From Aureimonas fodinaquatilis (GTDB taxonomy: Bacteria; Pseudomonadota; Alphaproteobacteria; Rhizobiales; Rhizobiaceae): a stretch of 64,000 bases of DNA. This document shows, piece after piece, positions 5,672-36,507 of this stretch (positions are counted from its first letter, which is position 1; each line of letters starts with the position of its first letter). The notes under the pieces were generated by a model, which saw only the letters and a program-made list of their open reading frames with translations, was not told the origin of the DNA and made no database searches. The position numbers were made by a program, and so were the translations under genes. The DNA lies in the NCBI RefSeq assembly GCF_008369445.1, contig NZ_VTWH01000002.1:558001-622000 (forward strand), in the 5' to 3' direction.

Positions 5672-5904
5672 TACACCGACATCTCCGAACAAGGCACAAG
5701 ACTTGAGCCATGTCCTTTATGCGCGACGAAGCGGGTGATATGCGACTTGTCCAAACGGGTGTGTGCATCCTGCCATCGGTGGACAGGCACCCCCCATCGT
5801 TCGTGTTGTGCTACGTTGGGGGTGTAACGTAGAAGTAGATACAACGAAATTTGTATCGGTGGCCTCAAACACCACGATCGCAGTGTTGGCTGGAGACACA
5901 CGCC

Positions 5905-13287: not shown

Positions 13288-13332
13288 CAAACGGCTCCTA
13301 TTGCCGAGTATCAAAAACTGGGCACGCCCCTG

Positions 13333-19809: not shown

Positions 19810-19932
19810 ACATTTAACAGGGCGGCCGCTCTGAGCCTTGGGCGTCAGGCGGCCTGACCACGATTTTCAACATTCAACACCGTAAGCCCGCGCCACCATG
19901 CCGGGCCAATGGTTGCTTTTTGCGAGGCCGCT

Positions 19933-21366
19933 ATGGCGCTTATTCAGAACACGCCCAATACCGCTTTGCCTGCCATTGCCCGTCCGCGGCGGCCAGGAAA
20001 GGCGTTTCATTACGATGATATTGCCAAGGTTGTTGCCACGCTTGATGTGGTGCTGATCGTCGCAAGCAGCGTTGTTTCCGGGCTTTTGTATCACTGGCTT
20101 GCTTATGGAATGCTGATTGATCCTTCACAATCAATCGGCGTCGGTCTGACACTTGCGGCGGCCTTCGTGCTGGTCATGAGTGCAAGCGGCCTGTACCAGC
20201 CTACCGCACTCTTGTCATTCGGCACTCAGTTCAAATCGCTGTTTCTGGCCGGCATCGGCATCGTGACCTTCATGACCGCGGTGGCATTCTTCCTCAAAAT
20301 CGGCGGTGATTTTTCCCGCGTTTCAATGGGGTCTTTCACCGTACTGGCCTTGAGCACAGTTGCCGTCAGCCGGCTTGTCTGGCGCGACCAGCTGCGCAAG
20401 GCCATGTCGCATGGCCTGTTCCAGATGAAGCGGGCTTTGTTGATCTGCGGTGACTCATTCAATCACGATCGGCTTGCGGAAGAAGTTTCGCACTACGGGA
20501 TGGCGATTCAGCATGTCCTGCGCTGCCCGAACGACGATTTCTCGTCGCTGGCAGGCGCGTTCAGCGCAGGTATCGGCTTTTCGGTCGATGAGGTGCTGGT
20601 TGCTACGCCTTACGGCAACCTGCCCCATGTTGACACGCTGTTGACGGAACTGCGTGCCCTGCCTCTGCCCATCAAGGTTGTGGTCAACGACTTTGCTGCC
20701 GAACTGGTGAGCCAGCCAATCCAGCATATTGGTGGTCTGGTTGCATTTGAAATCCAGCGCCGCCCGCTGACCCTGACCGAGCGTTTTATGAAGCGCGCTT
20801 TTGACATGATGTTTGCGGCAATGGCGCTGATTGCCCTGGCCATTCCATTCATCTTCGTGGCAATCGCCATCAAGCTGGACAGCAAGGGCCCGGTATTTTT
20901 CCGCCAGCAGCGCCGCGGTTACAACAACGAAGCGTTCCGCATCGTCAAGTTTCGCTCCATGCGCGTACAGGAAGATGGCGATACGGTAACCCAGGCACGC
21001 CGACAGGACAGCCGCATCACCAAGGTTGGCCGGTTCATTCGCGCAACCAGCATTGATGAGTTGCCGCAGTTCTGGAATGTGCTGTGTGGCCATATGTCGA
21101 TTGTTGGCCCACGTCCGCACGCTGTTGCGCATGACCGTGAATATGACCAGATGATCCGCAAATACACCTTCCGCCGCCATGCCAAGCCGGGCCTGACGGG
21201 CTGGGCGCAGATTAATGGTCATCGTGGAGAGACACCAACGCTTGGCCACATGGAAGCGCGCCTTAACTATGACCTGTGGTACATCCACAACTGGTCGCTG
21301 TTTCTGGATATGCGCATCATCGGCCGGACTGTTCTGGAGATGATCAACTCCAAATCGGCTTACTAG
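19933..21366 (+). CDS. Undecaprenyl-phosphate sugar phosphotransferase (WcaJ/ExoY-type, polyisoprenyl-phosphate hexose-1-P transferase)
   Basis: The N-terminal half has four to five membrane helices and a cytoplasmic Rossmann-like part (LLICGDSFNHDRLAEEV). The C-terminal half is the bacterial sugar transferase domain: a membrane helix at about 278-300, then FFRQQRRGYNNEAFRIVKFRSM, DELPQFWNVLCGHMSIVGPRPHA and KPGLTGWAQINGHRG. This is the full WcaJ layout. It starts exopolysaccharide assembly by moving hexose-1-phosphate from a UDP-sugar to undecaprenyl phosphate. The ATG at 19933 has GAGG five bases upstream and is preferred over the ATG at 19909. It is the last gene of the exopolysaccharide locus, 5 bp from the convergent phosphopantetheinyl transferase gene. 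Confidence 0.92.
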   Translation: MALIQNTPNTALPAIARPRRPGKAFHYDDIAKVVATLDVVLIVASSVVSGLLYHWLAYGMLIDPSQSIGVGLTLAAAFVLVMSASGLYQPTALLSFGTQFKSLFLAGIGIVTFMTAVAFFLKIGGDFSRVSMGSFTVLALSTVAVSRLVWRDQLRKAMSHGLFQMKRALLICGDSFNHDRLAEEVSHYGMAIQHVLRCPNDDFSSLAGAFSAGIGFSVDEVLVATPYGNLPHVDTLLTELRALPLPIKVVVNDFAAELVSQPIQHIGGLVAFEIQRRPLTLTERFMKRAFDMMFAAMALIALAIPFIFVAIAIKLDSKGPVFFRQQRRGYNNEAFRIVKFRSMRVQEDGDTVTQARRQDSRITKVGRFIRATSIDELPQFWNVLCGHMSIVGPRPHAVAHDREYDQMIRKYTFRRHAKPGLTGWAQINGHRGETPTLGHMEARLNYDLWYIHNWSLFLDMRIIGRTVLEMINSKSAY

Positions 21367-21370
21367 CGCT

Positions 21371-22027
21371 TTAAGCGACGAGCGTCAGACCTGTCAGAAT
21401 GTGGCCGCCTGTGACAAGCAGGCGGCCTTTCCATGTCTGGCCTTTGGTAAAGCCCGCCACATCCATAGCCCAGATTGCCGTGAACCTACCCGCCTGCAGG
21501 TCTGGCAACACTCGGAAAGCTTCAAAACCGAAGAGTTCATTCGTCAGCGGATATTGCGCCTTGTAGGCGCATTCCTTGGCGCTGAATATCACCTTGGCCA
21601 TCAGGCCCGCCTCGTGCTCGGGCAGACCGTGCAGATAGTCCAGTTCGCTGTCAAAGCAGATCTCCTGCCACAGGTCAGGTTCCAGCGGCTGGGCTTCTTC
21701 AATATCCAGACCCAGCGCACGCACGCCATCGGCCTGCCGGGCCACTACGGCCCCGCACAGGCTGGCGGAATGGCTGATGCAGCCCACAAGCCCCGCTGGC
21801 CATACTGGCGAGCGATCCGGTGCAACGGCCACTGCCTGCGGGTGTAACCCCAGTTGCGCCATGGCAGCGCGTGCACACGCGCGCCCGGTGGCAAACTCTG
21901 CCCGGCGTGCAGGCACCGCCGCCGCAACCTGCGCTGCCTCCAGCGCAAAAAGCCCTTCCGCCCGATAGGGTGGAAGGGCCTCGAAGGTTGCAACCGGCCG
22001 GTCAAACAGACGCGGCAGCAGCTTCAT
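21371..22027 (-). CDS. 4'-phosphopantetheinyl transferase, EntD/Sfp-type
   Basis: The 218-residue enzyme shows the EntD signatures in order. These are RAEFATGRACAR (about 42-53), GCISHS (82-87, CoA contact), ALGLDIE (about 104-110, the Mg-binding Asp and Glu), and FSAKECAYKAQY (about 148-159, catalytic Glu and Lys). It transfers phosphopantetheine from CoA to the serine of carrier proteins. Its start overlaps the NRPS stop (ATGA), so it is translationally coupled to it. It is the obvious activator of the NRPS carrier (Ser in GGHSLLA) and the PKS acyl carrier (Ser in GGHSLIA) encoded next door. Confidence 0.93.
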   Translation of the reverse strand: MKLLPRLFDRPVATFEALPPYRAEGLFALEAAQVAAAVPARRAEFATGRACARAAMAQLGLHPQAVAVAPDRSPVWPAGLVGCISHSASLCGAVVARQADGVRALGLDIEEAQPLEPDLWQEICFDSELDYLHGLPEHEAGLMAKVIFSAKECAYKAQYPLTNELFGFEAFRVLPDLQAGRFTAIWAMDVAGFTKGQTWKGRLLVTGGHILTGLTLVA

Positions 22028-25000
22028 CCAGTTTCACGCACGCGCACTATTCCCCCGCGTCGCTCGTTCAAGGCATTGCGGCGCATGGCAGCACGATCCG
22101 CAACCCGGTTCAAGCGTTCATCTGCTTTGCTGTCGCCATCAATGTGCGCGGCAAGCGCCCCGGCCGTGGGAAAACGGAACAGGTCGGTGATTGTCAGCGC
22201 CGGAGCAACGGAAGCCTTGAGCTCGCGGTGCGCCTGCACGGCCAGCAGCGAATGTCCACCCAGTGCAAAGAAGCTGTCGGAAAGCCCAACCCGCTCGACA
22301 CCCAGAATCCGCTGGAAGGTTTCCACCACCGCCTGCTGGGTTGAATTGTCCGGCGCAACATAGCTCTGCGTGCTGGCAGGAGCCTTTGCGTCTTCCGGAC
22401 GCGGCAATTGCTTGCGATCCACCTTGGCGTTCGGCGTCAGAGGAAATGCGTCCAGCGTCAGAAAATGCGCCGGTATCATGTAGTCCGGCAAGTCGCGCGT
22501 CAGTTCGGTGCGCAACGTCTCGTCTGCCGGTGCTTCACCCTCCACACGCATGTAGGCAACAATCCGCACGTCGTCTTTGCGGTCTTCCCGCGCCATGACA
22601 ACCGCCTCGACAATGCCCGGCAATGCCGCGAGGCGGGATTCAATCTCGCCCAGCTCAATACGATAGCCACGCACTTTGACCTGATGGTCTGCACGGCCAA
22701 GGAAATTCAGTGTGCCATCGGCAGAGAATGAGACCAGATCGCCGGTGCGGTACATGCGCCTGCCGGTAAACGGATCCTGCACAAAGCGCTCTGCCGTCAA
22801 GTCCGGCCGCTGAATATAGCCGCGGGTTACACCCTCTCCGCCAATATACAACTCTCCCGGGAAGCCGGGAGGTACAGGCTGTCCGGCCACATCCAGCGCG
22901 TAGAGCTGAGTGTTGGCAATTGGCTTGCCCAGTGGCACAACGCCTTCAGACTGGTTGGCTGTCAGCGTGGAAGACCAGATCGTGGTTTCCGTTGGCCCGT
23001 ACATGTTTTCAACGCTGGCCGAAGACACCGCGGCAATGTCGCCCAACAGCGAGGAGTGCAACGCTTCACCACCAATGAACAGGTGGCGCACACGCGCGAG
23101 TGCAGAGCGGTTTTCATCCGAGTCCAGGAACATGCGCGCCATGGATGGCGTGCACTGCAGATGGGTTACGCCGTGGCGAGCGATCAGGCTGGCAAAGCTT
23201 TCCGCTTCGCTTGCCTCGGCCTGTGGTGCACGATTGCGAGCCACCACATCGGCCAGATGCGGCAGGCTTTGCAGCACTGTGTCGCTGTTCACGCCGAAAT
23301 CAATCAGGCAGGCAACATCATCCACGCCAACGGCGGCAATTTCATCCAGCCGACGCGCAGCATCTTCCACCGTGCCAAACAGGCCGGAATCTTCAAAATA
23401 ACGCTGGAAGGCAAAGTCCAGAATTGCGTCCACCTCGTCCTGATCCAGCGAGCGCAGATCAATATCCATGGCGTTGGTTGCGCCCTGCGGTTTTTTGAAG
23501 GCCGGAAACGCCCAGGCATATTGCTTGATCAACGCCGCAGCACTGCGCAAATATTCCTTCAATGGCTCTCTGGCTTGTTGGCGAACAACCTCGCGGTCTG
23601 TGCCAACCAGGGTGTGCAGCATCAAGGTAACCTTGAATGCGCTCGGGTCATGACCGCATTCGCGCAATGTTTCGCGGTATATGCGAATCTTGTCGCCAAG
23701 TTCGGCAACAGACTGCCCCAGCAAGTGCGTCAGCACGTTGGCGCCGGCACGCGCTGCGTCACGGTAGGTTTCAGGGTTTCCGGCTGTGGTTATCCAGACC
23801 GGTAGTTCCTTCTGCACTGGCCGTGGCTGAGTCACCACAGCGGCTTTGCCGGAACCAAAGTCGAATTCAACGGCTTCGCCCCGCCACAAGCGCCGCACCG
23901 TTTCAATGTCGCGCAGCATCGCCGCCTTGTTGTTGGGCGGAGTGTTTTCCGGACGCAGCACAAAGTCTTCCGGCATCCAGCCGGAGGCAAAGGCCAGGCC
24001 AACACGGCCATTGCTCAGATTGTCCAGAACCGACCATTCTTCCGCAACACGCAGCGGGTGGTGCAGCGGCAGAACGCAGCTGCCCGCACGGATGGCAAGG
24101 TTTTTGGTGATAGAGGCTACGGCGGCGCCCGTTACAGCCGGATTTGGATATGGACCGCCAAAAGCATGGAAGTGCCGCTCTGGCGTCCAGATAGACTGGA
24201 ACCCATGCTCGTCGGCAAATTTTGCGCCTTCCAGCAGCAGGCGATATTTGGCCGGGCCTGCCCCATCGTCATTGCCCCAGTAAAACAGGCCGAAATCCAG
24301 CGCCTTCAACGTGCCGGTAAGCCGCTGGGAAGCCGCGGCGGCGGCACTGTAGACCACCACCTTGAAGCCGCGGGTCAGCGTCCAGAAAAGCTCCAGTACA
24401 GAAATGTCGAAGGACAGGCTGGTAACAGCCAGCCAAACCGGCTGGTCAGGACCATCCACCCCGGCAATCCGATCATCCATGCCGGCAAAGAAGTTGGCCG
24501 CATTGCCATGTTCCACCATCACGCCCTTCGGGCGGCCTGTGGAACCGGATGTGAAAATAACATAGGCCAGATTAGAGGATGTTGAACCGGAAGTCGGGCG
24601 GGTGGCCGGCCAATCCTGAGCCAGCACGTCCTCTATCACCATGACGCGCACGCCCGCCAGCGCCGGAGAATTTGCCAGCGAACGGTCGGTCAGCACCACC
24701 GGGGCGGCGCTGTCTTCAATCATCAGGGCCAGGCGATCGGCCGGAAATGCCGGATCCAGCGGCACATAGGCGCCGCCAGCCTTGTGAATGGCCAGACCGC
24801 CCGTAACAAGGTCCATGCCGCGTGGCAGATGCAGGCCAACCAGCACATCCGGGCCAATACCCGCCGCTTGCAAGGCATGGGCAATGCGGTTGGCGCGCTC
24901 ATCCAACTGGCGGTAAGTCAGTTGCCCGGCGCTGTCAGCCACTGCAACCAGATCTGGCGTGCGGTCAACCTGCAGCTCGATCAGCGAATGCATGGTGGCC

Positions 25001-26595
25001 TGCCGGTCATAGTCCCGCTCGGAGCGGTTCCACTCAAACAGCACGCGGTTCTTTTCCGCCTCATCCATCAACGGCAGTGACAGCATGGCCGCATCATCAG
25101 CGAAGCCGGCAGCAAAAATGCCGAAACGGTGCGCCAGTTCCTGCGCCTTGTTATGTGAGACGCGGTTGGCATCATAAAAGAGCTGCCCGCCAGAGGTGTT
25201 GAATGCGAAGGTCAAGGCAGTGCCCTGCACCGCCTGCCCGTTTTCGCTGATGGCAATTGCCAGACGCGCGGGCGACAGGCCCGGCGTTCTCTGCACCAGA
25301 TCAGCCGCAAAAACGCCACGCTCTTTCAATGCAGCGACGCGTTGGGCAAAGCCGGAAACAAATTCTGCCACCGTGGCATTGTCCGCAGATTCGATGCGCA
25401 GCGGGACCGATGGTGAAAAATATTCCGGGAACTCAGAGGCAAGGCTTGCAATTCCGGCATGGACAAACGCCACATCAAAAGCTGGTTCACCGCCAATGCG
25501 CCGCAAAAATGCCGCGGCAACAGCCATGCCGCCATCGGCCGGCGCTGCCAGGTCAAGCGAGCGTATATCGGCCTGCACCGATGGGGCTGCAATACCGGGG
25601 ATATCCAGATCTGCCGCGGATGCAATGGCCTTTCGGAAAAACGCCTCATGCGTTGCCGCTGCTTCTGTTGCAACTGTCAGACTGGCGCTCTCATCTGCGT
25701 TGATGCGCGGCAGCAAATCGCCCTTGCGCAGAAATTGCGTTACCGGCAGCCCCCCGGCGCATTGCGCCGTTACAAGAACGGGCTTGTCTGCTGTGGCAAT
25801 GACCGCAGCATCTGCACGCAGATCCAGCACCTCACCTGGCAGACCGGGTAACGCCTCGTCCAGCACAGTCAATGTTTGAACCGTCAGCAATCCCCTGCCC
25901 GTCTGCAGCTTGGCGGTGGAAAGTGGATTGCGGTAGCCCGCACCAAAACTCAAAGCCCGAACAGTTTGCGACAGCGCCTGTGCGCCCTGGTCAAAATCCA
26001 GCGTGCCAGCCGCCACAGGCCGCTTGCTGCGCGCAAAAAGCTGGCGGTTGGTAAAATCCTGCGCCACCGGCTGTACGCCATCTTCCAGCGCAACAAGCAC
26101 CCGTGCAAAAGAGGCAATGCCTGCTTCAAAGCATTTGGTGTTCAGCGTCAGTGCGGTATCGTCCGCCTCCAGCGCAAACATTTCCTGCGCGTAGATTGCA
26201 CCCTCATCAATGCCATCGGTAATGGCGTGCCAGGTAACGCCATGCTGCTCTTCGCCAGCCAGCAGAGCCCAGCTTGGGGTGTTCAAACCGGCATAATGCG
26301 GCAATGGCCCATCGTGAAAGTTGATTGCACCTCTGTTGGCACCGGCCCACACAGCGTGCGGAATCATCCTCAGATTGGCGACACTGAACAACCAGTCGTA
26401 TGAGGTGTTACCCAGCACACTCGCCAGATCGCCCTGCCATTGCAGAGCCTCGATCCCTTCGCCCCTGGCCCACTGGCGCACCGATGAATTAGCGGAAACA
26501 ATAGCAGAGATTGTGTGGCCTCTGGCCAGCACCAGCCTTGCGCATTCCACGAGAAGAGATTCGTCACCCACCATTACGCAATTGAAAGCGGCCAT
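22024..26595 (-). CDS. NRPS: formyltransferase - C remnant - A domain with embedded luciferase-like monooxygenase - PCP
   Basis: Domain order in the 1523-residue protein: (1) a methionyl-tRNA-formyltransferase-like domain, residues about 1-290, with catalytic-type Asn92 and His94 in INFHDGPLPHYAG and Asp130 in GIDEGAIYA; (2) the C-terminal part of a condensation domain, about 340-510, without an HHxxxDG motif; (3) an adenylation domain from about 515, with core A3 TSGSTGRPKG near 678 and A4 FDISVLEL; (4) an FMN luciferase-like monooxygenase of the MupA/Atu3671 type inserted between A4 and A5, about 765-1110 (DFGLFYWGNDD, ERHFHAFGG, RAGSCVLPLHHPLRVAEEW, FASGWMPEDF); (5) the rest of the A domain (NMYGPTETTIW, YRTGDLV, KVRGYRIELGEIE, and NAKVDRK with the A10 lysine); (6) a carrier protein with Ser near 1447. 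The adenylation code reads D-I-L-Q-F-G-M-I-W-K, close to the known glycine code. There is no thioesterase. The start chosen is the ATG at 26595, with GGAG upstream; an upstream TTG is at 26610. Confidence 0.92.
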   Translation of the reverse strand: MAAFNCVMVGDESLLVECARLVLARGHTISAIVSANSSVRQWARGEGIEALQWQGDLASVLGNTSYDWLFSVANLRMIPHAVWAGANRGAINFHDGPLPHYAGLNTPSWALLAGEEQHGVTWHAITDGIDEGAIYAQEMFALEADDTALTLNTKCFEAGIASFARVLVALEDGVQPVAQDFTNRQLFARSKRPVAAGTLDFDQGAQALSQTVRALSFGAGYRNPLSTAKLQTGRGLLTVQTLTVLDEALPGLPGEVLDLRADAAVIATADKPVLVTAQCAGGLPVTQFLRKGDLLPRINADESASLTVATEAAATHEAFFRKAIASAADLDIPGIAAPSVQADIRSLDLAAPADGGMAVAAAFLRRIGGEPAFDVAFVHAGIASLASEFPEYFSPSVPLRIESADNATVAEFVSGFAQRVAALKERGVFAADLVQRTPGLSPARLAIAISENGQAVQGTALTFAFNTSGGQLFYDANRVSHNKAQELAHRFGIFAAGFADDAAMLSLPLMDEAEKNRVLFEWNRSERDYDRQATMHSLIELQVDRTPDLVAVADSAGQLTYRQLDERANRIAHALQAAGIGPDVLVGLHLPRGMDLVTGGLAIHKAGGAYVPLDPAFPADRLALMIEDSAAPVVLTDRSLANSPALAGVRVMVIEDVLAQDWPATRPTSGSTSSNLAYVIFTSGSTGRPKGVMVEHGNAANFFAGMDDRIAGVDGPDQPVWLAVTSLSFDISVLELFWTLTRGFKVVVYSAAAAASQRLTGTLKALDFGLFYWGNDDGAGPAKYRLLLEGAKFADEHGFQSIWTPERHFHAFGGPYPNPAVTGAAVASITKNLAIRAGSCVLPLHHPLRVAEEWSVLDNLSNGRVGLAFASGWMPEDFVLRPENTPPNNKAAMLRDIETVRRLWRGEAVEFDFGSGKAAVVTQPRPVQKELPVWITTAGNPETYRDAARAGANVLTHLLGQSVAELGDKIRIYRETLRECGHDPSAFKVTLMLHTLVGTDREVVRQQAREPLKEYLRSAAALIKQYAWAFPAFKKPQGATNAMDIDLRSLDQDEVDAILDFAFQRYFEDSGLFGTVEDAARRLDEIAAVGVDDVACLIDFGVNSDTVLQSLPHLADVVARNRAPQAEASEAESFASLIARHGVTHLQCTPSMARMFLDSDENRSALARVRHLFIGGEALHSSLLGDIAAVSSASVENMYGPTETTIWSSTLTANQSEGVVPLGKPIANTQLYALDVAGQPVPPGFPGELYIGGEGVTRGYIQRPDLTAERFVQDPFTGRRMYRTGDLVSFSADGTLNFLGRADHQVKVRGYRIELGEIESRLAALPGIVEAVVMAREDRKDDVRIVAYMRVEGEAPADETLRTELTRDLPDYMIPAHFLTLDAFPLTPNAKVDRKQLPRPEDAKAPASTQSYVAPDNSTQQAVVETFQRILGVERVGLSDSFFALGGHSLLAVQAHRELKASVAPALTITDLFRFPTAGALAAHIDGDSKADERLNRVADRAAMRRNALNERRGGIVRVRETG

Positions 26596-26895
26596 CGCAA
26601 CAGGCTCCAAAACAACTTAGAATATGAATGCGGCGACTATGCTCATCAGCTGAATTGAAGATCAACGTGTCCTTCCGGTGGCATCGGAAGGTGGGCTATG
26701 GGTGCATATTATCCACCAGAAGGCGTATAGGCATCCATAATTTTATCCCTTGGGTATAAGTCATATCTTCCCAAATGCTAGCGTGACGCCTTGCATGATA
26801 AAGCTTACCACTGATCGCAGCGGCTAGCTTGTTTTTGGCCGGGAAGACAGCATTTCATTGTTTAAATTCCAAACTATAGATTGCGGGCGGACGAT
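26596..26895. promoter_or_regulatory. Divergent NRPS/PKS promoter region with two palindromes
   Basis: This 300-bp region must drive both synthase genes. A perfect inverted repeat CCTTCCG-GTGGCAT-CGGAAGG is at 26671-26691. A near-palindrome TTATCCCTTGGGTATAA is at about 26743-26759. The segment from 26740 to 26895 is markedly AT-rich compared with its surroundings. Either palindrome could be an operator, and no regulator gene lies in the cluster. Confidence 0.5.
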
Positions 26896-29800
26896 ATGGC
26901 TGATGAAACTTTTTCACCCAATGACATAGCAATCGTCGGTATGGCGCTTCGCGTACCGGGTGCGAAAGATGCCGCAGGCTTCTGGAAAAACCTATGCGAT
27001 GGCGTTGAATCCATCAGCACTTTAACCCCGGAAGAGCTTATCCAGCACGGCGAAAGCGCCGAGCGCATGCATCATCCAAATTATGTACCGCGCGCAGCCG
27101 TGCTGGATGAAATGGAGTTGTTTGATGCCGATTTCTTTGGGCTCAGCCCCAAGGAAGCGGCGATTATGGACCCGCAGCATCGGCAGTTTCTGGAATGCGC
27201 CTGGGAAGCGATGGAAGATGCCGGGCGCACGCCTGATACGGCCAATGGCCCGGTGGGGGTTTTTGCCGGCTGCGGCATGGGAAGCTACTTCTACTTCAAC
27301 GTTTGCAGCAACCGACAACTTGTTGAAGAAACAGGCATGTTTCTACTTCGCCACACGGGCAACGACAAGGATTTCCTGGCAACCAGAGCCTCGTTCAATT
27401 TCGATTTGCGCGGCCCCAGCGTTAACGTGCAGACCGCCTGCTCAACATCTCTGGTCGCCGTGCATTATGCCTGTCAAAGCCTGTTGAATGGCGAGTGTGA
27501 CATGGCGCTTGCGGGCGGTGTCACCATCGAGCTGCCGCATCGTCGCGGCTATGTGTTTCAGGATGGTGAAATTCTTTCGCCAGATGGCCATTGCCGGGCG
27601 TTTGATCACCGCGCGGCTGGCACGGTATTTGGCAGCGGCACGGGCGTTGTGGTGCTGCGCCGTCTTGCCGATGCCATGGAAGATGGCGATGTCATCCACG
27701 CGGTCATCAAGGCCAGTGCCTTGAACAATGATGGTGGCACAAAAGCGGGCTACCTCGCCCCCAGTGTTTCCGGTCAGGCAGAAGCAATTGTCGAGGCGCA
27801 GGTTCTTTCCGGACTGCCCGTGGAAACCATTGGCTATGTCGAGTGCCATGGCACCGGCACCTATCTTGGCGACCCGATTGAAATTGAAGCTCTGACCCAG
27901 GCTTTTCGGCAAAGCACCAGCCAGACCGGCTTCTGCCGGATTGGGTCGGTTAAAACCAATATCGGCCATCTGGACACGGCGGCCGGTGTTGTCGGCCTTA
28001 TCAAAGCGGCGCTGATTGTGAAGCACGGCCAGATTCCGCCAAGCCTGAATTACGAAAAGCCGAACCCTTCCATTGCGTTTGAAACAACGCCATTCATTGT
28101 CAATGACCGTTTGACCGAGTGGCAGGATACAGGCGCGCCGCGCCGTGCCGCCATCAACTCGCTTGGCGTTGGCGGCACCAATGCGCATGTTATTTTGGAA
28201 CAGCCACCAGTCGCCAGCACGCCCAAGGGCCGCCCGGCTTCGGCAGACAATGACAATGCGCAATTGCTGGTCTTTTCGGCAAAAAGCCGCAAGGCTCTGG
28301 ATGGCGCAGTCGCCCGTCTGGCAGCGCGATTGGCTGATGACTCCAACCTGTCATTGCGTGACACGGCTTACACATTGCTGCACGGGCGCAAGGCGTTTGA
28401 ACATCGCCGGGTTGTGGCCGTGCGCGATCGGCAGGATGCCATTGCAACACTGAGTGACACCGAAACACGCCGCGCCTTCACCCACTCGGCAATGGACAGC
28501 ACCAGCGGAGCAGTGTTTCTGTTTCCTGGCGGAGGGGCGCAGCACACCGGCATGACCGCGCAGCTTTATGCGCAGGATACCGGCTTCCGCGCATTGGTGG
28601 ATGAGGGCCTTTCCTATCTGCCCGCTGCCGCCGCCACAGAAATCCGTCAGGCCTGGCTGGAAGCATCCGCCGGCAATGAAGCCGCAGCGCAAGCCCTCCT
28701 CAAGCCATCGGTTCAGCTTCCTGCCATTCTCATTATCGAAATTGCCATTTCCCGCACGCTGATGGCGGCTGGCATTCGGCCAAGCGCATTGATTGGCCAT
28801 TCCATGGGCGAAAACGCTGCTGCCTGTCTGGCAGGGGTTTTCAGCTTCAAGGATGCGGTCAACCTTGTGCGCCTGCGTGGTGAGTTGTTTGACACGATTG
28901 CCCCAGGCGGCATGCTGAGCGTGCCAATGGATCCGGCATCGCTGCAGGCAATTCTTCCAGAAGCGCTGGACCTTGCTTCCGTCAACGCACCGCAATTCTG
29001 CGTCGTTTCCGGCAAGAATGAAGATCTGGAAGCGTTCCGCGCCGATTTGCTGGCGCGTGATATTGAAAGCACCCGGATACAGATCGACATTGCGGCCCAT
29101 TCGCGAATGCTGGATGATATTCTGCCGCGCTTCGAGGCATTTTTGCGCAGCATCCGGTTGTCGGCACCACGCATTCCAATCATGTCCAACCTGACCGGCG
29201 AATGGCTGTCGGACGCGCAGGCCATAGACCCGACATACTGGTGCAGGCATTTGCGCTCCACCGTGGAATTTGCCCGCGGAATGGGCGCATTGGCAGCCGA
29301 CAAATCCCGCGTCTATATTGAAGTCGGCCCCAGCCGTGCCTTGAGTTCGCTGGCCAAGGCGCAGGGCAATATCGATGCAAACCAGATCATCAATGCATTG
29401 CCACACCCGGACGAGGTGGTGGACGATCGGCTTTATCTGCTGACCGCCATTGGCCGCGCTTTTGCCGTGGGCCTGCCGGCTGACCTTTCCGCAATGTTCA
29501 AGGACAGCGGCGCGCGCCGCGTGTCTCTGCCAACCTATGCATTTCAGCATCGTCGGTTTTTCATTGAACAGGCAGCAGCCACAACCGCCAAGGCGGGCGA
29601 GGCAGCGCCGCTTTTGCGCCGTGCAGACATTTCCGATTGGGGCTACCGCCCGGTCTGGAAGCAATCCCTGCCCGATATTGAAAGCGAAGTGGCAGCAGAA
29701 CGCCAGTTCTGGCTGGTGTTTGCCGATGAAGGCGGAATAGGCGCAAACCTGACCGAAAGGCTTCGCAAGGCAGGACACAGGGTCGCAACGGTTCGACTGG

Positions 29801-32800
29801 GCGACAATTTTGGCAAACGCGGCGCTGATGACTATGTGCTGTGCCCGGAAAACGAGCGCGCTGGCTATGACGCTTTGTTCAGCGGGTTGGCGGCTGATGG
29901 CGAGATGCCAAGCCAGATTGTGCATTTGTGGCTTTTGACCACGGATGAAAGCCACCGCCCCGGCTCCAGCTTTTTCCACCGCAATCAGGAATGCGGGTTT
30001 TACAGTATATTGTATCTATCCCAAGCCATGGCAGATGCCGGGGCTGGTGCACCACTGCACCTGACAATTGCCACCAATGGCATGCAGCGGGTGGCAGATG
30101 AGGCCGTGCCATGCCCGGAAAAGGCAACCATATTGGGCCCGGCCCTGGTGCTGCCCAAGGAAATGCCCGGTGTCACCGTGCGCATTGCCGATATGGACCT
30201 GCCGGTCAAAGTTGCACAGAAGCAAACGCGCAGCACGCTGTTTGCACGCCGCAGGCCTGAAGCTGACGAACAATTGCCCGATACTGAAGGGCAATTGTGG
30301 AACGAGTTGATGGCCGCTCCAGCTACGGAAACACTGGCTTATCGTGCTGAAAAGCGCTGGAAGCGGGCTTATGCGCCGCTGAAGCTTCAGGAAACCGACA
30401 AGTTGGCAATCCGGCAGCGCGGTGTCTACATGTTCACCGGCGGTCAGGGTGATCTGGCGCTGGCACTGGCGTCGCAGCTGGTCAATGATTATCAGGCAAA
30501 AATTGTTCTGGTTGGCCGTCGGCCTCTGCCGGACCGCAGCCAGTGGCCGCTGCTTTCAAAAGCACTGAACCGCCGCGACCGGACCCGCCGCACCATTGCG
30601 GCCATTTCGGCCATGGAAGAAACCGGCGCAAAAGTTCTGTATCTGAATGCCGATGTCGGCAATCAGGTCGAAATGCAGGCTGCGGTTGCAGAAGCTCGCA
30701 AGGAGTTCGGCGAACTCAACGGCGTGTTCCACACTGCAGGTCTGGTAAAGGACGATCTGATTCCGCTGAAAACCCATGCGGATGTGGAAGAAGTGTTTGC
30801 GCCAAAGGTGCACGGCACTGCCGTTCTTGCCGATAGCCTCGATCAGGAAAAGCTGGATCTTCTGGTGCTTTTCTCTTCCACCAGTACCGATACTGCGCCT
30901 GCCGGTCAGGTGGATTACGTTGCCGCCAACGCCTATCTGAACGCCTATGCAGAAAGCTGCCGCAACCGCACAGACCGAAAAACCGTGGCCGTGCATTGGG
31001 GTGTGTGGGATGAAACCGGACTTGCTGCCCGTGCCATGGGGCGCAGTGTGGTTGACTCGCAGACACTGGAACCTGCCAGCGGCCCGTTCTTCACCCACTG
31101 GGTGGAAGACGAGGATGAAAATCTGTGGCTCGAAACTTCCATAAGCCCCCGCACACACTGGCTTCTGTCTGAGCACAGGCTTGTTTCCGGTACGGCAATT
31201 CTGCCCGGCACCGGCTATATCGAACTGTTGCTGCAAGCGGCTCGTGAATACGGCCTGGCCGAGGCAGTGGAAATTCGCGATCTTGTGTTCCTGCGTCCGC
31301 TGGATGTGGAAGACAATGCCGAAAAGCTGGTTCGGTTGCGTTTGGAGCCGACCCGTCAGGGGCTGCGGGCCACCATTACGGCGCAGGCCAGCGATGGGGC
31401 ATTTGTGCGCCATGCCGAAGCGCTGCTTCTGCAGGCCGCGACTGAACAGCCCAGGATCGATATTGCGGCTGTTCAGGCACGCTGCACCGAGCGCACAGCG
31501 GCAGAGCCGGGTCAAACCCTGCGCGCTGCGCAGGAGGATCACGTCCGCTTCGGCCCGCGCTGGCGGGTTCTCAAATCCCTTTCCCTGGGCAAAGGCGAGG
31601 CACTGGCAGAGCTTGAACTGGCAGAGCAGGCAAAGGGTGATGACACCCGCCTGCACCCTGCCCTGATGGACATTGCCACTGGCTGTGCCATGGATCTGAT
31701 TGCCGGCTATGGCGACAGCAAGGTTCTGTGGGCACCGGCCTCCTATGCAAAGCTGCGCGTTCTGGCTCCCCTTCCGCAAAAGACCGTCAGCTGGCTAAGG
31801 CTGGCTGATGCCGAGGGTCTGGGTGATGGCTATGCGGCGTTTGATGTGGTTCTGGCCGACGAGGCCGGCAATGTCATAGCGCAGGTCGACCACTTCATCA
31901 TCAAACGTCTGGATGATGATGTCAGCTTTGCCGCGCCGGCTGCCGATACGGCCCGTGCGCCATCTGCTGCTCCACGCAGCACGTCGCCGGCAGTTCTTGC
32001 CCTTGCGGCGCAAGTGGCACAGGGCATTCGTCCTGCAGAAGGATTTTCCGCACTGGTTCGTGCCCTCGGCACCGGAGAAAGCCAGCCGATCATTTCTTCC
32101 ATGGATCTTCCAGCGCTTATATCCCGTGCGAACCAGCCTCTGGAAGAGGTTGAAAAATCATCGCAATTGTTCGAACGGCCGGCACTTGAACGAGATTTTG
32201 TCGCCCCACGAAATGCTATTGAACGCAAGCTCGCAGATTTCTGGCGGGAGTTGCTGGGTGTTGACGGAATTGGCGTTGATGACAGCTTTTTCGACATCGG
32301 CGGTCACTCGCTGATCGCGGTCCGGCTGTTCCGCATGATCCGGCAGGAATATGGTCTGGACTTTCCGATTTCCGTGCTTTTTGAAGCGCCGACTATTGCA
32401 GCCTGCGCCGCATTGATTGGTGAAAAGGTTGGCACGCAGGATGGCGAAGACGGCAGCACGGAACCGCGTCAGGAAGACGCCACCTCCAAGCTGACGCATC
32501 TGGTTGTCATGCACAAAGGCAAGAACCCACAGGCAACGCCGTTCTTCCTGTGTGCAGGCATGTTCGGAAACATTCTGAATTTGCGCCATCTGGCACTGCA
32601 TCTTGGCACCGACCGCCCGGTTTATGGCCTGCAATCGCGTGGGCTGTACGGAATGGAATCCCCTCACGAGACATTTGAGGAAGCTGCACGCGAGATTATT
32701 TCCGAAATTCGCACTGTGCAGCCACATGGTCCTTATCTGCTCGGCGGCTTTTCCGGTGGCGGCATAACCGCTTTTGAAATTGCCCGGCAGTTGCAGGAGG

Positions 32801-33345
32801 CAGGGGAAACCGTAAGCCGCCTGATCATGCTGGATACGCCATTGCCAACCCAGCCGGCTCTGACGCAGATGGACCGTCTGGACATGAAATTGCAGGATCT
32901 CAAGCGAAACAAGCTGTCATTTGTATCGCAATGGTGGCGCAACCGGATGCTGTGGGAAAAAGAGCGGCGTGAAAAGGAATCTGCCGCAACCTCCGAAAAC
33001 TCGACAGAGCAATTCCACAATCACAATATTGAAGCGGCCTTCCGCCGTGCTTTGGAGCTGTATCAGGTCAGGCCCTATGCAGGCACGGTGCATCTGTTCC
33101 GCCCGGTTCCCGATGTTGTGTATCAGTTGCGGGATGGCCGCCGCCTGCAGGAAGGCCGCACCATTGTGCTGGATGACAATGGCTGGACCCCGTTTGTCGA
33201 TGAGCTGGTTGTTGCCATCGTTCCGGGTGATCATGACGGCATGGTGCTGGAACCCTGCGTGCGGGTTTTGGCAGAGCGCATGCGCCAGGTGTTGAATGAG
33301 GCGCCGGTCAACACCTCGCAATCGGTTTTGATGGCCGCTGAGTGA
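26896..33345 (+). CDS. Type I polyketide synthase, KS-AT-KR-DH-ACP-TE
   Basis: The 2149-residue protein contains these domains. Ketosynthase, about 10-430: Cys in TACSTS near 181, His in ECHGTGT near 316 and in KTNIGHLD. Acyltransferase, about 535-835: Ser in GHSMGE near 635; the selectivity region reads IAAHS, neither typical HAFH nor YASH, so malonyl is only a guess. Ketoreductase, about 1170-1370: TGGQGDLALALA, LFSSTS, Tyr in GQVDYVAANAY. Dehydratase, about 1410-1670: HRLVSGTAILP fits H-x4-G-x4-P, and HPALMDIA supplies the Asp. ACP with Ser near 1803, and a thioesterase (GFSGGG near 1951). All active-site residues appear present. KR precedes DH, the reverse of the common order. The start is taken at ATG 26896; a TTG at 26881 is in frame. 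It likely accepts the aminoacyl unit from the NRPS, extends it once, reduces, dehydrates and releases it. Confidence 0.93.
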   Translation: MADETFSPNDIAIVGMALRVPGAKDAAGFWKNLCDGVESISTLTPEELIQHGESAERMHHPNYVPRAAVLDEMELFDADFFGLSPKEAAIMDPQHRQFLECAWEAMEDAGRTPDTANGPVGVFAGCGMGSYFYFNVCSNRQLVEETGMFLLRHTGNDKDFLATRASFNFDLRGPSVNVQTACSTSLVAVHYACQSLLNGECDMALAGGVTIELPHRRGYVFQDGEILSPDGHCRAFDHRAAGTVFGSGTGVVVLRRLADAMEDGDVIHAVIKASALNNDGGTKAGYLAPSVSGQAEAIVEAQVLSGLPVETIGYVECHGTGTYLGDPIEIEALTQAFRQSTSQTGFCRIGSVKTNIGHLDTAAGVVGLIKAALIVKHGQIPPSLNYEKPNPSIAFETTPFIVNDRLTEWQDTGAPRRAAINSLGVGGTNAHVILEQPPVASTPKGRPASADNDNAQLLVFSAKSRKALDGAVARLAARLADDSNLSLRDTAYTLLHGRKAFEHRRVVAVRDRQDAIATLSDTETRRAFTHSAMDSTSGAVFLFPGGGAQHTGMTAQLYAQDTGFRALVDEGLSYLPAAAATEIRQAWLEASAGNEAAAQALLKPSVQLPAILIIEIAISRTLMAAGIRPSALIGHSMGENAAACLAGVFSFKDAVNLVRLRGELFDTIAPGGMLSVPMDPASLQAILPEALDLASVNAPQFCVVSGKNEDLEAFRADLLARDIESTRIQIDIAAHSRMLDDILPRFEAFLRSIRLSAPRIPIMSNLTGEWLSDAQAIDPTYWCRHLRSTVEFARGMGALAADKSRVYIEVGPSRALSSLAKAQGNIDANQIINALPHPDEVVDDRLYLLTAIGRAFAVGLPADLSAMFKDSGARRVSLPTYAFQHRRFFIEQAAATTAKAGEAAPLLRRADISDWGYRPVWKQSLPDIESEVAAERQFWLVFADEGGIGANLTERLRKAGHRVATVRLGDNFGKRGADDYVLCPENERAGYDALFSGLAADGEMPSQIVHLWLLTTDESHRPGSSFFHRNQECGFYSILYLSQAMADAGAGAPLHLTIATNGMQRVADEAVPCPEKATILGPALVLPKEMPGVTVRIADMDLPVKVAQKQTRSTLFARRRPEADEQLPDTEGQLWNELMAAPATETLAYRAEKRWKRAYAPLKLQETDKLAIRQRGVYMFTGGQGDLALALASQLVNDYQAKIVLVGRRPLPDRSQWPLLSKALNRRDRTRRTIAAISAMEETGAKVLYLNADVGNQVEMQAAVAEARKEFGELNGVFHTAGLVKDDLIPLKTHADVEEVFAPKVHGTAVLADSLDQEKLDLLVLFSSTSTDTAPAGQVDYVAANAYLNAYAESCRNRTDRKTVAVHWGVWDETGLAARAMGRSVVDSQTLEPASGPFFTHWVEDEDENLWLETSISPRTHWLLSEHRLVSGTAILPGTGYIELLLQAAREYGLAEAVEIRDLVFLRPLDVEDNAEKLVRLRLEPTRQGLRATITAQASDGAFVRHAEALLLQAATEQPRIDIAAVQARCTERTAAEPGQTLRAAQEDHVRFGPRWRVLKSLSLGKGEALAELELAEQAKGDDTRLHPALMDIATGCAMDLIAGYGDSKVLWAPASYAKLRVLAPLPQKTVSWLRLADAEGLGDGYAAFDVVLADEAGNVIAQVDHFIIKRLDDDVSFAAPAADTARAPSAAPRSTSPAVLALAAQVAQGIRPAEGFSALVRALGTGESQPIISSMDLPALISRANQPLEEVEKSSQLFERPALERDFVAPRNAIERKLADFWRELLGVDGIGVDDSFFDIGGHSLIAVRLFRMIRQEYGLDFPISVLFEAPTIAACAALIGEKVGTQDGEDGSTEPRQEDATSKLTHLVVMHKGKNPQATPFFLCAGMFGNILNLRHLALHLGTDRPVYGLQSRGLYGMESPHETFEEAAREIISEIRTVQPHGPYLLGGFSGGGITAFEIARQLQEAGETVSRLIMLDTPLPTQPALTQMDRLDMKLQDLKRNKLSFVSQWWRNRMLWEKERREKESAATSENSTEQFHNHNIEAAFRRALELYQVRPYAGTVHLFRPVPDVVYQLRDGRRLQEGRTIVLDDNGWTPFVDELVVAIVPGDHDGMVLEPCVRVLAERMRQVLNEAPVNTSQSVLMAAE

Positions 33346-33403
33346 ATCAGTAAACGACTGCACGGGAGCATATTTTACAGTCAATATTTTTGGATAAATC
33401 ATT

Positions 33404-35071
33404 ATGATAAACGACGATTTGGATGGCCTCGACGATCATTTTTCCGGTGTCTGCATCGTCGGCGCCGGCCCCGTTGGCATTTCTCTTGCGGTGGAACTGG
33501 CACGGCTTTCCGTGCCAGTGCTGCTGCTGGAATCTGGCGGGAAAAAGCGTGATCCCGAAATTCAGGCACTTTCACAAGCCGATTTTTCCAAGGCGGACAG
33601 TCATGACGACATGACGATTGCCGTGGCGCGCATGCTGGGCGGCACCTCCAATTTCTGGGGTGCCCGCTGCGTCATCTACGATCCGGTGGATTTCATGCCC
33701 CGGCCCGGCCTTGTCGATGCAAAATGGCCAATTGAATATCAGGACGTGTACAAGCATTACGCCCGCGCCTGCGAGCTGGCAGACACTGGCCAACTCGTCT
33801 ACTCCGCGCCGATTGCCGGATTGGAAACAGACGACAAAAGCTTCAGCTTTGACAGTTTGGAACGCTGGGCCAATGAGCAGAAGCTGCAGGTCACCCACCG
33901 CAAAATCCTGAGCGAAAGCCCTTTGATCGATGTGCGTTTGCACAGTGCGGTAACGGATATCGGCCTTGGTGATGATGGCAAGGTGCGTGACGTCGAAATT
34001 TCGCGCGCAGATGGCAGCGGCAAGCGCCGCCTTGGTGTCTCAACGCTTGTTCTAACCGCTGGCGGGTTGGAAAGCACTCGCCTGCTTCTGGCCACTCGCC
34101 GCAAATCACCCGATCTGTTTGGTGGGCCCGATGGCCCGCTTGGCCGCTATTACATGGGCCACGTCATTGGCGAAATTGCTGATATGACGCTGACGTCTGA
34201 CCGCCTGGATAAGGCGTTTGACTTTTTTGTCCATGAAAGTGGCTCGTATGTTCGCCGCCGCTTTGTGCCAAGTGTCGAAACGCAATTGCAGGAAGGCATT
34301 CTCAACACGTCACTTTGGCCAGTTGTGCCACCGGTTGCCGACCCGCGCCATCAAAGCTCCATTCTGTCACTGGTCTATCTGGTCATGGCTTATGGCCCGG
34401 TGGGAAGGCTCATTGTGGCCGAAGCCATTCGACGTCGCCATGTTTCCGACAAGCCGCAGGATGTCTTGAAGCATGTTCGAAATGTTCTTTCCGGCATGCC
34501 AGAAGCCGCGCGCCATGCCAGCAATTTTCTGATCCGGCGCTATACCGGTAAGGAAAGGCTGCCAGGCCTTTTTGTGCCGAACAAAAGTCGCCGCTATGGC
34601 CTTTCCTATCACTCGGAGCACAGCCCGGATGCATCAAGCCGGGTTTGGTTGACAGACAAGACAGATGCTCTTGGCTTGCCGCGTCTGGAAATTGACCAGC
34701 GTTTTCCGGAAGCGGATGCACAGTCGGTGGTCAAGGTGCATGACCTGTTTGAGAAATGGCTGCACACAACCGGCTTTGGCACTCTGGAATACCGCATGCC
34801 TCGTGAAGACAGGGTTGCCGGCGTCATGGCGCAGGCACGCCATGGCACACACCAGATCGGCCTGATCCGCATGGCAGACAACCGGCGCGAAGGCGTTGTC
34901 GATGCCAATCTGCGCAGTTTTGATCTGGATAATCTATACGTGGCAAGCGCTGCCGTATTGCCTACTTCCGGTCAGGCAAACCCGACCCTGACCGCTATTG
35001 CGCTGGCGGTCAGACTTGCCAACCATCTGGCAGAAAGCCGTTTTGCAACTCAGGCGGCCGTTGCCGCCTGA
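33404..35071 (+). CDS. GMC-type FAD oxidoreductase
   Basis: The FAD-binding dinucleotide fold is at the N-terminus (CIVGAGPVGISLAVELARL, about 18-36), then LLESGG and GGTSNFWGARC, the usual flavin-contact loop of GMC-family oxidoreductases. The C-terminal block has the conserved His/Asn region: HQIGLIRMADNRREGVVD, then NLYVASAAVLPTSGQANPTLTAIALA. Length is 555 residues and no signal peptide is seen. It follows the PKS gene by 58 bp on the same strand and is probably cotranscribed. It is a likely tailoring enzyme oxidising a hydroxyl or C-N bond in the released product. The substrate cannot be read from sequence. Confidence 0.88.
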   Translation: MINDDLDGLDDHFSGVCIVGAGPVGISLAVELARLSVPVLLLESGGKKRDPEIQALSQADFSKADSHDDMTIAVARMLGGTSNFWGARCVIYDPVDFMPRPGLVDAKWPIEYQDVYKHYARACELADTGQLVYSAPIAGLETDDKSFSFDSLERWANEQKLQVTHRKILSESPLIDVRLHSAVTDIGLGDDGKVRDVEISRADGSGKRRLGVSTLVLTAGGLESTRLLLATRRKSPDLFGGPDGPLGRYYMGHVIGEIADMTLTSDRLDKAFDFFVHESGSYVRRRFVPSVETQLQEGILNTSLWPVVPPVADPRHQSSILSLVYLVMAYGPVGRLIVAEAIRRRHVSDKPQDVLKHVRNVLSGMPEAARHASNFLIRRYTGKERLPGLFVPNKSRRYGLSYHSEHSPDASSRVWLTDKTDALGLPRLEIDQRFPEADAQSVVKVHDLFEKWLHTTGFGTLEYRMPREDRVAGVMAQARHGTHQIGLIRMADNRREGVVDANLRSFDLDNLYVASAAVLPTSGQANPTLTAIALAVRLANHLAESRFATQAAVAA

Positions 35072-35080: not shown

Positions 35081-35308
35081 CGCATTGTCCTGTCGTTGAA
35101 GCGAGTCCGCTTCAACGGGAAATGCTGAGGCCTTTTATTATCCGCATTGTCCTGTCGTTGAAGCGAGTCCGCTTCAACGGGAAATGAAGGCTTCTCGCTT
35201 TTTCGCATTGTCCTGTCGTTGAAGCGGATCCGCTTCAACGGGAAATGAAGGCTTCTCGCTTTTTCGCATTGTCCTGTCGTTGAAGCGAGTCCGCTTCAAC
35301 GGGAAATG
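35081..35308. repeat. Four tandem 44-bp palindromic repeats
   Basis: Copies lie at 35081-35124, 35143-35186, 35204-35247 and 35265-35308, separated by 18, 17 and 17 bp. The second and third spacers are identical (AAGGCTTCTCGCTTTTT). Each copy holds the hairpin CGTTGAAGCG-NNNN-CGCTTCAACG followed by GGGAAATG. The loop is AGTC in copies 1, 2 and 4 and GATC in copy 3, which makes copy 3 a perfect 24-bp palindrome. They sit between the convergent ends of the GMC oxidoreductase and GT4 genes. They look like REP/BIME-type elements rather than CRISPR because the spacers are short and repeated. Confidence 0.9.
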
Positions 35309-36507
35309 CTCTGTTCCCTAAACAGGCTGGCCAGATAAGCCGCTTCCTGATCCAGATTATGCCGCTCCCGCACCAGCGCCTGCCCACGCCGCCCCATATC
35401 AGCGCAGGCAACATCCGGCGCTTCAAGGCAACGCAGCATTGCTGCCGCTGCGGCTTCCACTGACCCGGCAGAAAACAGCCAGCCCGTTTCACCCTCGCGC
35501 ACCAGTTCCGGTATCGCGGCAATTTCGGTTGCAAGAACCGGGCGGCCCAGCGCATAGGCTTCCATAATCACCACGGGCAGCCCTTCGGCAAAACTGGTCA
35601 GGATCATCGCCCGTGCAGCCAGTATCTGATGGCGCACCTCATCGCCACTGGCCCATCCGGTGATGGTAACCGTATCTCCCAACCCTTCCCTGGCAATCAA
35701 CCCTTCAATATCCGGGCGCAATTCACCATCGCCCACCAGCACCAGTTCAAAATCCACACCGCGCTGCTTAAGCAGCGCCGCAGCCTGAACCAGCAACCAA
35801 TGGCCCTTTTGCCCACCCAGACGCCCCACCGTCACCAGACGCCGCGGATAAATTGGCGCGGGAGATGGTTCCAGCACATAAGCAGGGTCCAGCCCGCAGC
35901 GAACAATTCTGATCTTGCCCCAGTCGGCAAACTCCGCCCAACGATAGATCTGGCTGGCGCAAAAATCGCTGATGGCAGCAACAAACTTGGCGTGGTGCAC
36001 CTTGTCGCCCAGCTTCATGAAGCGCGGCGCATCAAATTCATCCGGTCCATGCACGGTGAAACTGTAAGGTATGCCGGAAAGCATGCTCGTCAGCATGGCG
36101 ACTTCGGCGGAGTTGGTGCCAAAATGCGCGTGAATATGCTGGGCCCCGACCTCTGCCAGATGTTCGGCCTGCAAACATGCTTCAGCCAGCGTAATGGCGT
36201 GTACAGCAGGGGACCGGTCGCTTTTGCGCATCATGCGCAGGCTCTGGCGCGCCGCTGCCCAGAACTTTTTCGGGTTGCGAAAAAGCTGTTTGGCCGTCGC
36301 TGAAACCAGCGGCACAGCTCCACCCTTCAGCAAATAATAGGTCTGTTTCTGCTCTGCTATATCTTCCGGATCAACAAGCTCTGCATCCCAGCCGCGCATG
36401 GCAGTGCGGTGCACGCGAACCCCGGCCTTTTCCAGCGCCAGAATTTCACGTCGAATGAAACTGTGGCTGGTCTTGGGATATTGATTGATCAGATACGCAA
36501 CTTCCAT
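35296..36507 (-). CDS. Glycosyltransferase family 4 (WcaL-like)
   Basis: The 403-residue protein has a GT-B fold: N-terminal acceptor domain MEVAYLINQYPKTSHSFIRREILALE and HIHAHFGTNSAEVA. The C-terminal GT4 domain has RLVTVGRLGGQKGH, then VGDGELRPDIEGLI and the E-x7-E type FAEGLPVVIMEAYALGRPVLATEIAAIPELV. It resembles colanic-acid WcaL-type transferases. Its last four codons and stop (S-I-S-R-stop) lie inside the fourth 44-bp palindromic repeat, so the original C-terminus may have been replaced. The metallophosphoesterase gene lies 111 bp upstream on the same strand. Confidence 0.88.
   Translation of the reverse strand: MEVAYLINQYPKTSHSFIRREILALEKAGVRVHRTAMRGWDAELVDPEDIAEQKQTYYLLKGGAVPLVSATAKQLFRNPKKFWAAARQSLRMMRKSDRSPAVHAITLAEACLQAEHLAEVGAQHIHAHFGTNSAEVAMLTSMLSGIPYSFTVHGPDEFDAPRFMKLGDKVHHAKFVAAISDFCASQIYRWAEFADWGKIRIVRCGLDPAYVLEPSPAPIYPRRLVTVGRLGGQKGHWLLVQAAALLKQRGVDFELVLVGDGELRPDIEGLIAREGLGDTVTITGWASGDEVRHQILAARAMILTSFAEGLPVVIMEAYALGRPVLATEIAAIPELVREGETGWLFSAGSVEAAAAAMLRCLEAPDVACADMGRRGQALVRERHNLDQEAAYLASLFREQSISR

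Follow-up and report, generated by a model that had tools for sequence, protein, structure and literature searches.

A hybrid peptide synthetase-polyketide synthase assembly line within an exopolysaccharide locus of Aureimonas fodinaquatilis and its probable role in polysaccharide decoration

The core genes and their exopolysaccharide setting

The window analysed here, a 64,000-nucleotide stretch of Aureimonas fodinaquatilis (contig NZ_VTWH01000002.1, positions 558,001 to 622,000), carries genes for a 4'-phosphopantetheinyl transferase (PPT), a nonribosomal peptide synthetase (NRPS) and a type I polyketide synthase (PKS), which form the core of a hybrid assembly line. This core lies in the middle of a single Wzx/Wzy exopolysaccharide (EPS) locus extending over 3.2-36.5 kb of the window, and it probably makes an unusual EPS decoration rather than a free natural product. 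The initial annotation of the region, made from the sequence of the window alone, had described these three genes and an adjoining GMC oxidoreductase gene as a self-contained four-gene pathway to a free small molecule. All four open reading frames (ORFs) are present in the ORF list of the window at the coordinates it gave, and its domain order was borne out by Pfam and NCBIfam searches. The idea of a self-contained pathway is not supported: the core, like most of the homologues examined, is part of an EPS locus.

The PPT gene (21371-22027, reverse strand) encodes an Sfp-type enzyme (4PPT_N, 2.1e-24; ACPS, 1.3e-11). The NRPS gene (22024-26610, reverse strand) specifies a formylation (F) domain, the remnant of a condensation (C) domain, a putative glycine-specific adenylation (A) domain with an inserted luciferase-like monooxygenase (LLM), and a peptidyl carrier protein (PCP). 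Its Pfam matches comprise Formyl_trans_N (1.6e-16), AMP-binding (1.5e-82), interrupted by Bac_luciferase (2e-47), and PP-binding. The LLM belongs to TIGR04020, which bears the family name MupA/Atu3671 (485.8 bits, cut-off 244.45), and occupies residues 773-1122, after the A4 motif FDIS and before the A5 motif MYGPTE. A truncated condensation domain, as initially annotated, was confirmed by alignment of the linker between the F and A domains with the C-terminal half of five condensation domains (hhalign probability 97.2%); the half that bears the HHxxxD motif is missing. The PKS gene (26881-33345, forward strand) encodes ketosynthase (KS), acyltransferase (AT), ketoreductase (KR), dehydratase (DH), acyl carrier protein (ACP) and thioesterase (TE) domains in this order, with Pfam matches to ketoacyl-synt, Acyl_transf_1, KR, PKS_DH_N/PS-DH, PP-binding and Thioesterase. 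Both the NRPS and the PKS ORF as called start with TTG; the in-frame ATG codons at 26595 and 26896, respectively, are the likelier starts. The GMC oxidoreductase gene (33404-35071, forward strand; GMC_oxred_C, 2.5e-20) shows weak similarity to pyranose oxidases (TIGR02462, 3.6e-11, far below the cut-off), and its product perhaps acts on a sugar.

The residues expected of an active assembly line are largely conserved. The signature of the A domain, D-I-L-Q-x-G-M-I-W, was read by eye from a 17-row alignment and corresponds to the glycine code, suggesting a glycine-activating domain. Asn92, His94 and Asp130 of the F domain, presumably catalytic as in FMT, are kept in 16 of these rows, the remaining one being a Deinococcus sequence that has no F domain. 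Both observations are consistent with the earlier prediction of an N-formylated glycine. In all 68 PKS rows the KS Cys/His/His, AT Ser/His, KR Ser/Tyr/Asn, DH His/Asp, ACP Ser and TE Ser/Asp residues are present, and the TE His is present in 67, with a gap in the last. The claim that all active-site motifs are present stands for the catalytic residues and needs correction for the KR cofactor motif and the DH motifs. In the former (residues 1185-1194 of the ORF as called), the last glycine is an alanine in the window PKS and a glycine in 42 of 68 rows, and another glycine is replaced by serine in ten rows and kept in 58. Given this variability, some members of the family may skip ketoreduction, and the altered motif casts some doubt over the reduction step in the window PKS. 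The DH motifs are unusual throughout the family: the His motif carries one extra residue, and the second motif ends in glycine in 68 of 68 rows. The core is under purifying selection, with ratios of nonsynonymous to synonymous substitution rates of about 0.08 (NRPS) and 0.07 (PKS) between loci L005 and L017.

The genes on both sides of the core make up a complete Wzx/Wzy-dependent EPS set, with phosphoglycosyl transferase, flippase, polymerase, export, chain-length and glycosyltransferase (GT) functions, of which the chain-length and kinase-like members score under the curated cut-offs. A WcaJ-type undecaprenyl-phosphate sugar phosphotransferase gene, whose product is expected to start the EPS repeat (19909-21366, forward strand; Bac_transf, 1.5e-67; TIGR03023, 424.9 bits, cut-off 410.75), ends four bases from the PPT gene, and its product is one of two PF02397 matches in the host genome. 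It is preceded by two GT2 genes (17262-18269 and 18589-19809, forward strand) and, on the reverse strand, by genes for a Wza-type polysaccharide export protein (15776-16984; Poly_export, 1.3e-19), an EPS chain-length determinant of the XrtA-system type (14118-15686; TIGR03007, 138 bits, under the cut-off of 278.85), an EPS tyrosine-autokinase-like protein (13333-14130; TIGR03018, 3.2e-11, under the cut-off) and an XrtA-system-associated ATPase (12439-13314; TIGR03015, 263.7 bits, cut-off 324.5). Further out lie a third GT2 gene (11108-12436, forward strand), a gene for a tetratricopeptide repeat protein with weak rhamnosyl-transferase similarity (8872-10731, reverse strand), and genes for a Wzx-type oligosaccharide flippase (7508-8875, forward strand; Polysacc_synt_3, 8e-43) and a Wzy/O-antigen-ligase-type polymerase (5851-7518, forward strand; Wzy_C, 1.4e-12). 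These are followed by another GT2 gene (4697-5692, reverse strand; Glycos_transf_2), with BLAST matches in 66 stretches including the window, and a gene for a predicted secreted glycoside-hydrolase-like protein (3156-4700, reverse strand). Beyond the GMC oxidoreductase gene, a GT4 gene (35296-36507, reverse strand), homologues of which recur beside such NRPS and PKS genes, completes the locus. The initial remark that no exporter accompanies the cluster does not hold, since an export route lies just past its edges (Wzx at 7508-8875 and Poly_export at 15776-16984).

Association with exopolysaccharide genes in homologous loci

One genome per species was scanned for homologues, and the best 80 of at least 574 confirmed stretches with relatives of the NRPS were compared; most of these 80 loci have homologues of the polysaccharide genes of the window as neighbours. 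EPS-type ORFs were counted by six-frame searches with hidden Markov models (HMMs) of 15 EPS-type neighbour families, nine loci shorter than 19 kb being left out. At least two such ORFs were found in 70 of the 71 loci of 19 kb or more and at least one in all 71, counts that are circular in so far as the HMMs were trained on these same loci. Two other measures are free of this circularity. Twenty control stretches of 20 kb, taken at arbitrary positions in eleven of the NRPS-bearing genomes, yielded no EPS-type ORF in 19 cases and a single weak match in one. Of 33 genomes, 24 have a match to PF02397, the family of the initiating sugar transferase, within 25 kb of the NRPS gene and 14 have one within 10 kb, compared with 1.24 and 0.56 genomes, respectively, expected from the number of such matches per genome.

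The arrangement of the genes points in the same direction. In 75 loci both the NRPS and the PKS gene are inside the fetched stretch, and 45 of these have them on the same strand; a GT2 gene is situated between PKS and NRPS in 44 of the 45, and on two annotated Ruegeria plasmids the three genes are only 2-3 bases apart. The GT2 at 4697-5692 of the window is a homologue of the one found in this position in most Rhodobacterales and Hydrogenophaga loci. Loci L012 and L034, both from Rhizobiales, have a rearranged PKS and NRPS with glycosyltransferase genes lying between the two. The genome of L034 holds two NRPS copies with identical scores on separate contigs (G315 C11 and C16), which represent either a recent duplication or assembly redundancy. 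The GMC oxidoreductase, initially counted as a core gene, is a member of only 17 of 81 loci (window included), often elsewhere in the locus, and adjoins a short-chain dehydrogenase/reductase (SDR) gene in Paracoccus and Ruegeria; a role as a fixed tailoring enzyme was set aside on the ground of this patchy occurrence. Neighbour clusters C16 and C31 (by position) and C24 and C41 (from a look at the sequence) are probable antisense shadow ORFs and were not used.

Plasmids accounted for 28 of the records with a match, thirteen of which were looked at. Of the nine from Alphaproteobacteria, seven carry polysaccharide loci (Aminobacter, Shinella, two Ruegeria, Parasedimentitalea and two Paracoccus); that of Aliiroseovarius is of a different kind, and a Methylobacterium bullatum plasmid has no annotation and gave weak HMM matches only. 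Among the other four, the Deinococcus match lies in a polysaccharide locus. Matches on Streptomyces, Nostoc and Burkholderia glumae plasmids belong to other kinds of clusters, that of B. glumae leaving the F part uncovered. In two Paracoccus EPS loci, a second NRPS gene was found beside glycosyltransferases (L088:665-4543, read as C-A-PCP-TE, and L105:1-2540), and its product may extend the acyl unit. In one Ruegeria EPS locus, four consecutive genes (L087:28311-32225), for UbiA, GtrA, an FAD-binding oxidoreductase and an SDR, resemble a polyprenyl-phospho-arabinose pathway.

The assembly line is uncommon among the sampled genomes. At E up to 1e-300, a match was obtained in 6 of the 297 genomes sampled from the order; at E up to 1e-200, the numbers were 7 of 385 for the class and 16 of 398 for the phylum. 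The three samples overlap and each includes the window's own genome. Sixteen other genomes in these samples, at least three of which also belong to the set of 80 loci, gave full-length matches, and twelve of them have clear EPS neighbours in the stretch read. In G117 such neighbours are 15-35 kb away, and G257 gave weak matches. G253 and G944, which match the A-LLM part only, showed no EPS-type ORF by HMM.

In a FastTree phylogeny of the A-LLM-PCP part, 97 of 108 sequences, including the window and all 80 loci, form one clade. A separate clade of six (L089, L092, L093, L096, L108 and L110) contains full-length relatives whose PKS ends in TE or C-A-PCP-TE; the F domain was confirmed by Pfam in L089 and L096. 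The Aliiroseovarius plasmid locus L089 (18450-32189) encodes F-A[LLM]-PCP and KS-AT-KR-DH-ACP-C-A-PCP-TE beside denitrification genes, and this line likely makes a free product. Because some relatives in a separate clade have no EPS neighbours, the close coupling to EPS genes characterises one large lineage and not the domain set as such. The F-A[LLM]-PCP and KS-AT-KR-DH combination is, on this reading, an older chemical unit.

Proposed product and alternative explanations

We propose, with a probability of roughly 0.6, that the PPT-NRPS-PKS core is a dedicated line making an N-formyl-glycine-derived C4 acyl unit of a Wzx/Wzy EPS pathway. The individual steps are modelled on named precedents. 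The PPT would prime both carriers, PCP and ACP, an assignment based on its being one of two ACPS-family matches in the host genome, in which a profile search found no PF00668 match. The A domain would load glycine and the F domain would formylate its amino group, as in LgrA, whereupon the LLM would oxidise (hydroxylate) the alpha carbon; this step could keep the resulting carbinolamide or cleave it. The PKS would then add one malonyl unit, reduce it and probably dehydrate it, in line with the single extension step predicted initially, and the TE would release the acid or transfer it to an acceptor. The expected small acyl unit is of the 4-formamido-but-2-enoyl type, possibly 4-hydroxylated, or a 4-oxobutenoyl unit if the carbinolamide collapses. 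Of the C4-sized N-formyl product in the initial annotation, the C4 chain is retained, while the formyl group brings the total to C5. Calculated residue masses on a sugar would be +111.032 for 4-formamidobutenoyl, +127.027 for its 4-hydroxy form and +82.006 for 4-oxobutenoyl. The gene context suggests that the neighbouring glycosyltransferases would incorporate the acyl unit in the EPS repeat or attach it there.

A Deinococcus actinosclerus plasmid, a single record from another phylum whose sequence branches outside the 97-sequence clade, provides the strongest individual hint of the acyl unit being handed to something. Its line consists of A[LLM]-PCP and KS-AT-KR-DH-ACP-C; the F domain is missing, a free-standing formyltransferase gene lies just upstream, and a condensation domain replaces the TE. 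The neighbouring genes code for a sugar transferase, a UDP-glucose dehydrogenase, CapK and a glycosyltransferase. The hint lies in this chemistry being found within a polysaccharide locus and in its line ending with a condensation domain, a type that joins acyl groups to nucleophiles. More tentatively, and at somewhat less than even odds, a widespread and unrecognised class of EPS might bear an NRPS-PKS-made, N-formyl-alpha-hydroxyglycine-derived C4 acyl group, transferred onto a lipid-linked sugar by the terminal domain of the PKS (TE, or C in Deinococcus). That C4 group could be a masked aldehyde that cross-links or binds in the biofilm matrix.

Several observations weigh against a polymer-bound product. 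An acyltransferase for its attachment was not pinned down, and TE domains usually hydrolyse or cyclise their substrates. The model of the window TE (predicted local distance difference test score 86.9) is folded like an ordinary TE and has a long lid helix, and in a fold search all 1000 aligned chains reached Z >= 8. Only a few Z separate the scores of hydrolytic TEs, cyclising TEs, a branching TE (7r0x) and the TE of Pks13 (5v3y: Z 25.0, root-mean-square deviation 3.3, 212 aligned residues); the model thus matches all four kinds alike, and the fold was set aside as proof of acyl transfer. Homologues in the separate clade, at 42-45% identity, have the same F-A[LLM]-PCP and KS-AT-KR-DH chemistry, and the Aliiroseovarius locus contains no EPS-type ORF by HMM, its two annotated GT2 genes being 16-20 kb away and accompanied by xrtD. 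Such relatives without EPS genes imply that the chemistry does not require a glycan. G668 and G955, which belong to these separate-clade homologues and are two of the sixteen full-length genomes, likewise showed no EPS-type ORF by HMM in about 39-40 kb. The FastTree support of the 97-tip clade is 0.845, and the 33 genomes in which PF02397 was counted are related and do not amount to 33 independent events.

These points bear on the foremost alternative, which we consider unlikely, namely that the product of the core is a small molecule secreted in free form, such as a biofilm signal, and that its genes stay close to the EPS genes for common regulation. It would agree with the intact triad and the usual outcome of a TE, and with the relatives outside the 97-tip clade that have the same type of line while EPS genes are absent or distant. 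It leaves unexplained the GT2 gene between PKS and NRPS in all but one of the same-strand loci and an EPS context that survives rearrangements and is also found on plasmids; furthermore, the ORFs scanned on either side of the window core include no small-molecule exporter.

A further alternative, which is quite improbable, sees the product not as a substituent of the repeat unit and instead as a primer, cap or anchor present once per polymer, by analogy with the capsule-locus PKS RkpA/WcbR, whose product is presumably a lipid. Type I PKS genes of the wcbR/rkpA kind are described in the capsule clusters of Burkholderia, Nitrosomonas and Rhizobium (PMC3908369). However, a glycine starter with one extension would yield a short polar acid and not a lipid, and genes for a phosphoglycosyl transferase, Wzx and Wzy are present in the window locus itself. 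A metallophore or siderophore pathway of the Atu3671 kind, to which the LLM family name and the potential of an N-formyl-N-hydroxy unit to bind iron (if the LLM oxidised nitrogen) might point, is very improbable and was set aside, as the initial annotation had also held, since no TonB receptor or siderophore transport gene was found in a scan of 33 window ORFs, which left the short ones aside, and monooxygenase insertions between A4 and A5 in the glycine domains of myxothiazol and melithiazol synthesis are alpha-carbon hydroxylases (PMC10204066).

Known systems and further observations

Several known systems come close to the window line. The best solved-structure matches of the whole NRPS protein are chains of LgrA, the F-A-PCP initiation module of linear gramicidin synthesis, which likewise has an N-terminal formyltransferase domain on an NRPS initiation module; in contrast to LgrA, the window protein has a condensation remnant between F and A and an LLM within the A domain, and its chain would go to a PKS. 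The fold matches of the window TE include that of mycobacterial Pks13, a TE that transfers an acyl chain to trehalose; domain order and substrate differ, and the fold alone shows no common function. In D-alanylation of teichoic acids by DltA/DltC, A-domain and carrier-protein chemistry ends on a cell-envelope polymer, although this system handles a single amino acid without PKS and without formylation. Similar in the placement of the monooxygenase are the A-MOX modules of myxothiazol and melithiazol synthesis, MtaG and MelG. In these, too, a glycine-activating domain is interrupted by the monooxygenase after A4 and before A5 (PMC10204066). According to that paper, end-of-line cleavage of the carbinolamide gives an amide and leaves a glyoxylyl thioester, and the carbinolamide is kept in solanimycin B; the window module, by contrast, would be an N-formylated loading module followed by extension. 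RkpA/WcbR resemble the window PKS in being type I enzymes encoded in a polysaccharide locus, and the available part of PMC3908369 describes no NRPS partner.

Members of the family may already have been reported in other contexts. Inhi_1972 (PKS) and Inhi_1974 (NRPS) of Phaeobacter inhibens, which the accessible part of PMC4062626 does not link to EPS, probably belong to the same family as the window genes; the spacing of their gene numbers, on which the comparison is based, fits the order PKS-GT2-NRPS. The Paracoccus marcusii plasmid NZ_CP065894 (from Cancer pagurus) gave a match to the NRPS, and therefore the Paracoccus hybrid cluster of PMC8273931 probably contains a homologue; EPS is not discussed in the available parts of that paper. 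Among the open-access papers listed, no title or beginning of an abstract presented an NRPS-PKS line as a component of EPS synthesis, which is a weak negative. PKS genes in capsule loci are known (PMC3908369), and what would be new is an NRPS-PKS assembly line serving a polysaccharide. Genome-mining tools would class such loci as small-molecule NRPS-PKS clusters, and searches of culture extracts would then chase a metabolite that perhaps never occurs in free form. A polymer-bound unit would widen the range of bacterial polysaccharide constituents, join assembly-line enzymology with glycan biosynthesis and provide a chemical signature open to direct testing in marine and soil bacteria that are amenable to genetics.

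At the edge of the EPS locus, the glycoside-hydrolase-like protein (3156-4700) has no Pfam match and 24 BLAST matches including itself; its homologues are found in 23 other stretches of such loci, several of them aligning within longer proteins. The label of this neighbour family, like the label 'SGNH' of another, is based on motifs recognised by eye without a Pfam match. The adjacent ORF of 345 amino acids (2083-3120, reverse strand) has no Pfam match, and a BLAST search of fetched loci gave no match to it either. The scanned window ORFs include no exosortase, and xrtD is present near related loci in Ruegeria conchae and Aliiroseovarius. Past 36.6 kb, the window contains mostly housekeeping genes, followed at 52608-63045 (forward strand) by a BapA-type adhesin gene (BapA_N, 12 Big_6 stretches) and genes for an outer-membrane efflux protein, an ABC transporter and HlyD, which together constitute a type I secretion adhesin set and a further biofilm function near the EPS locus.

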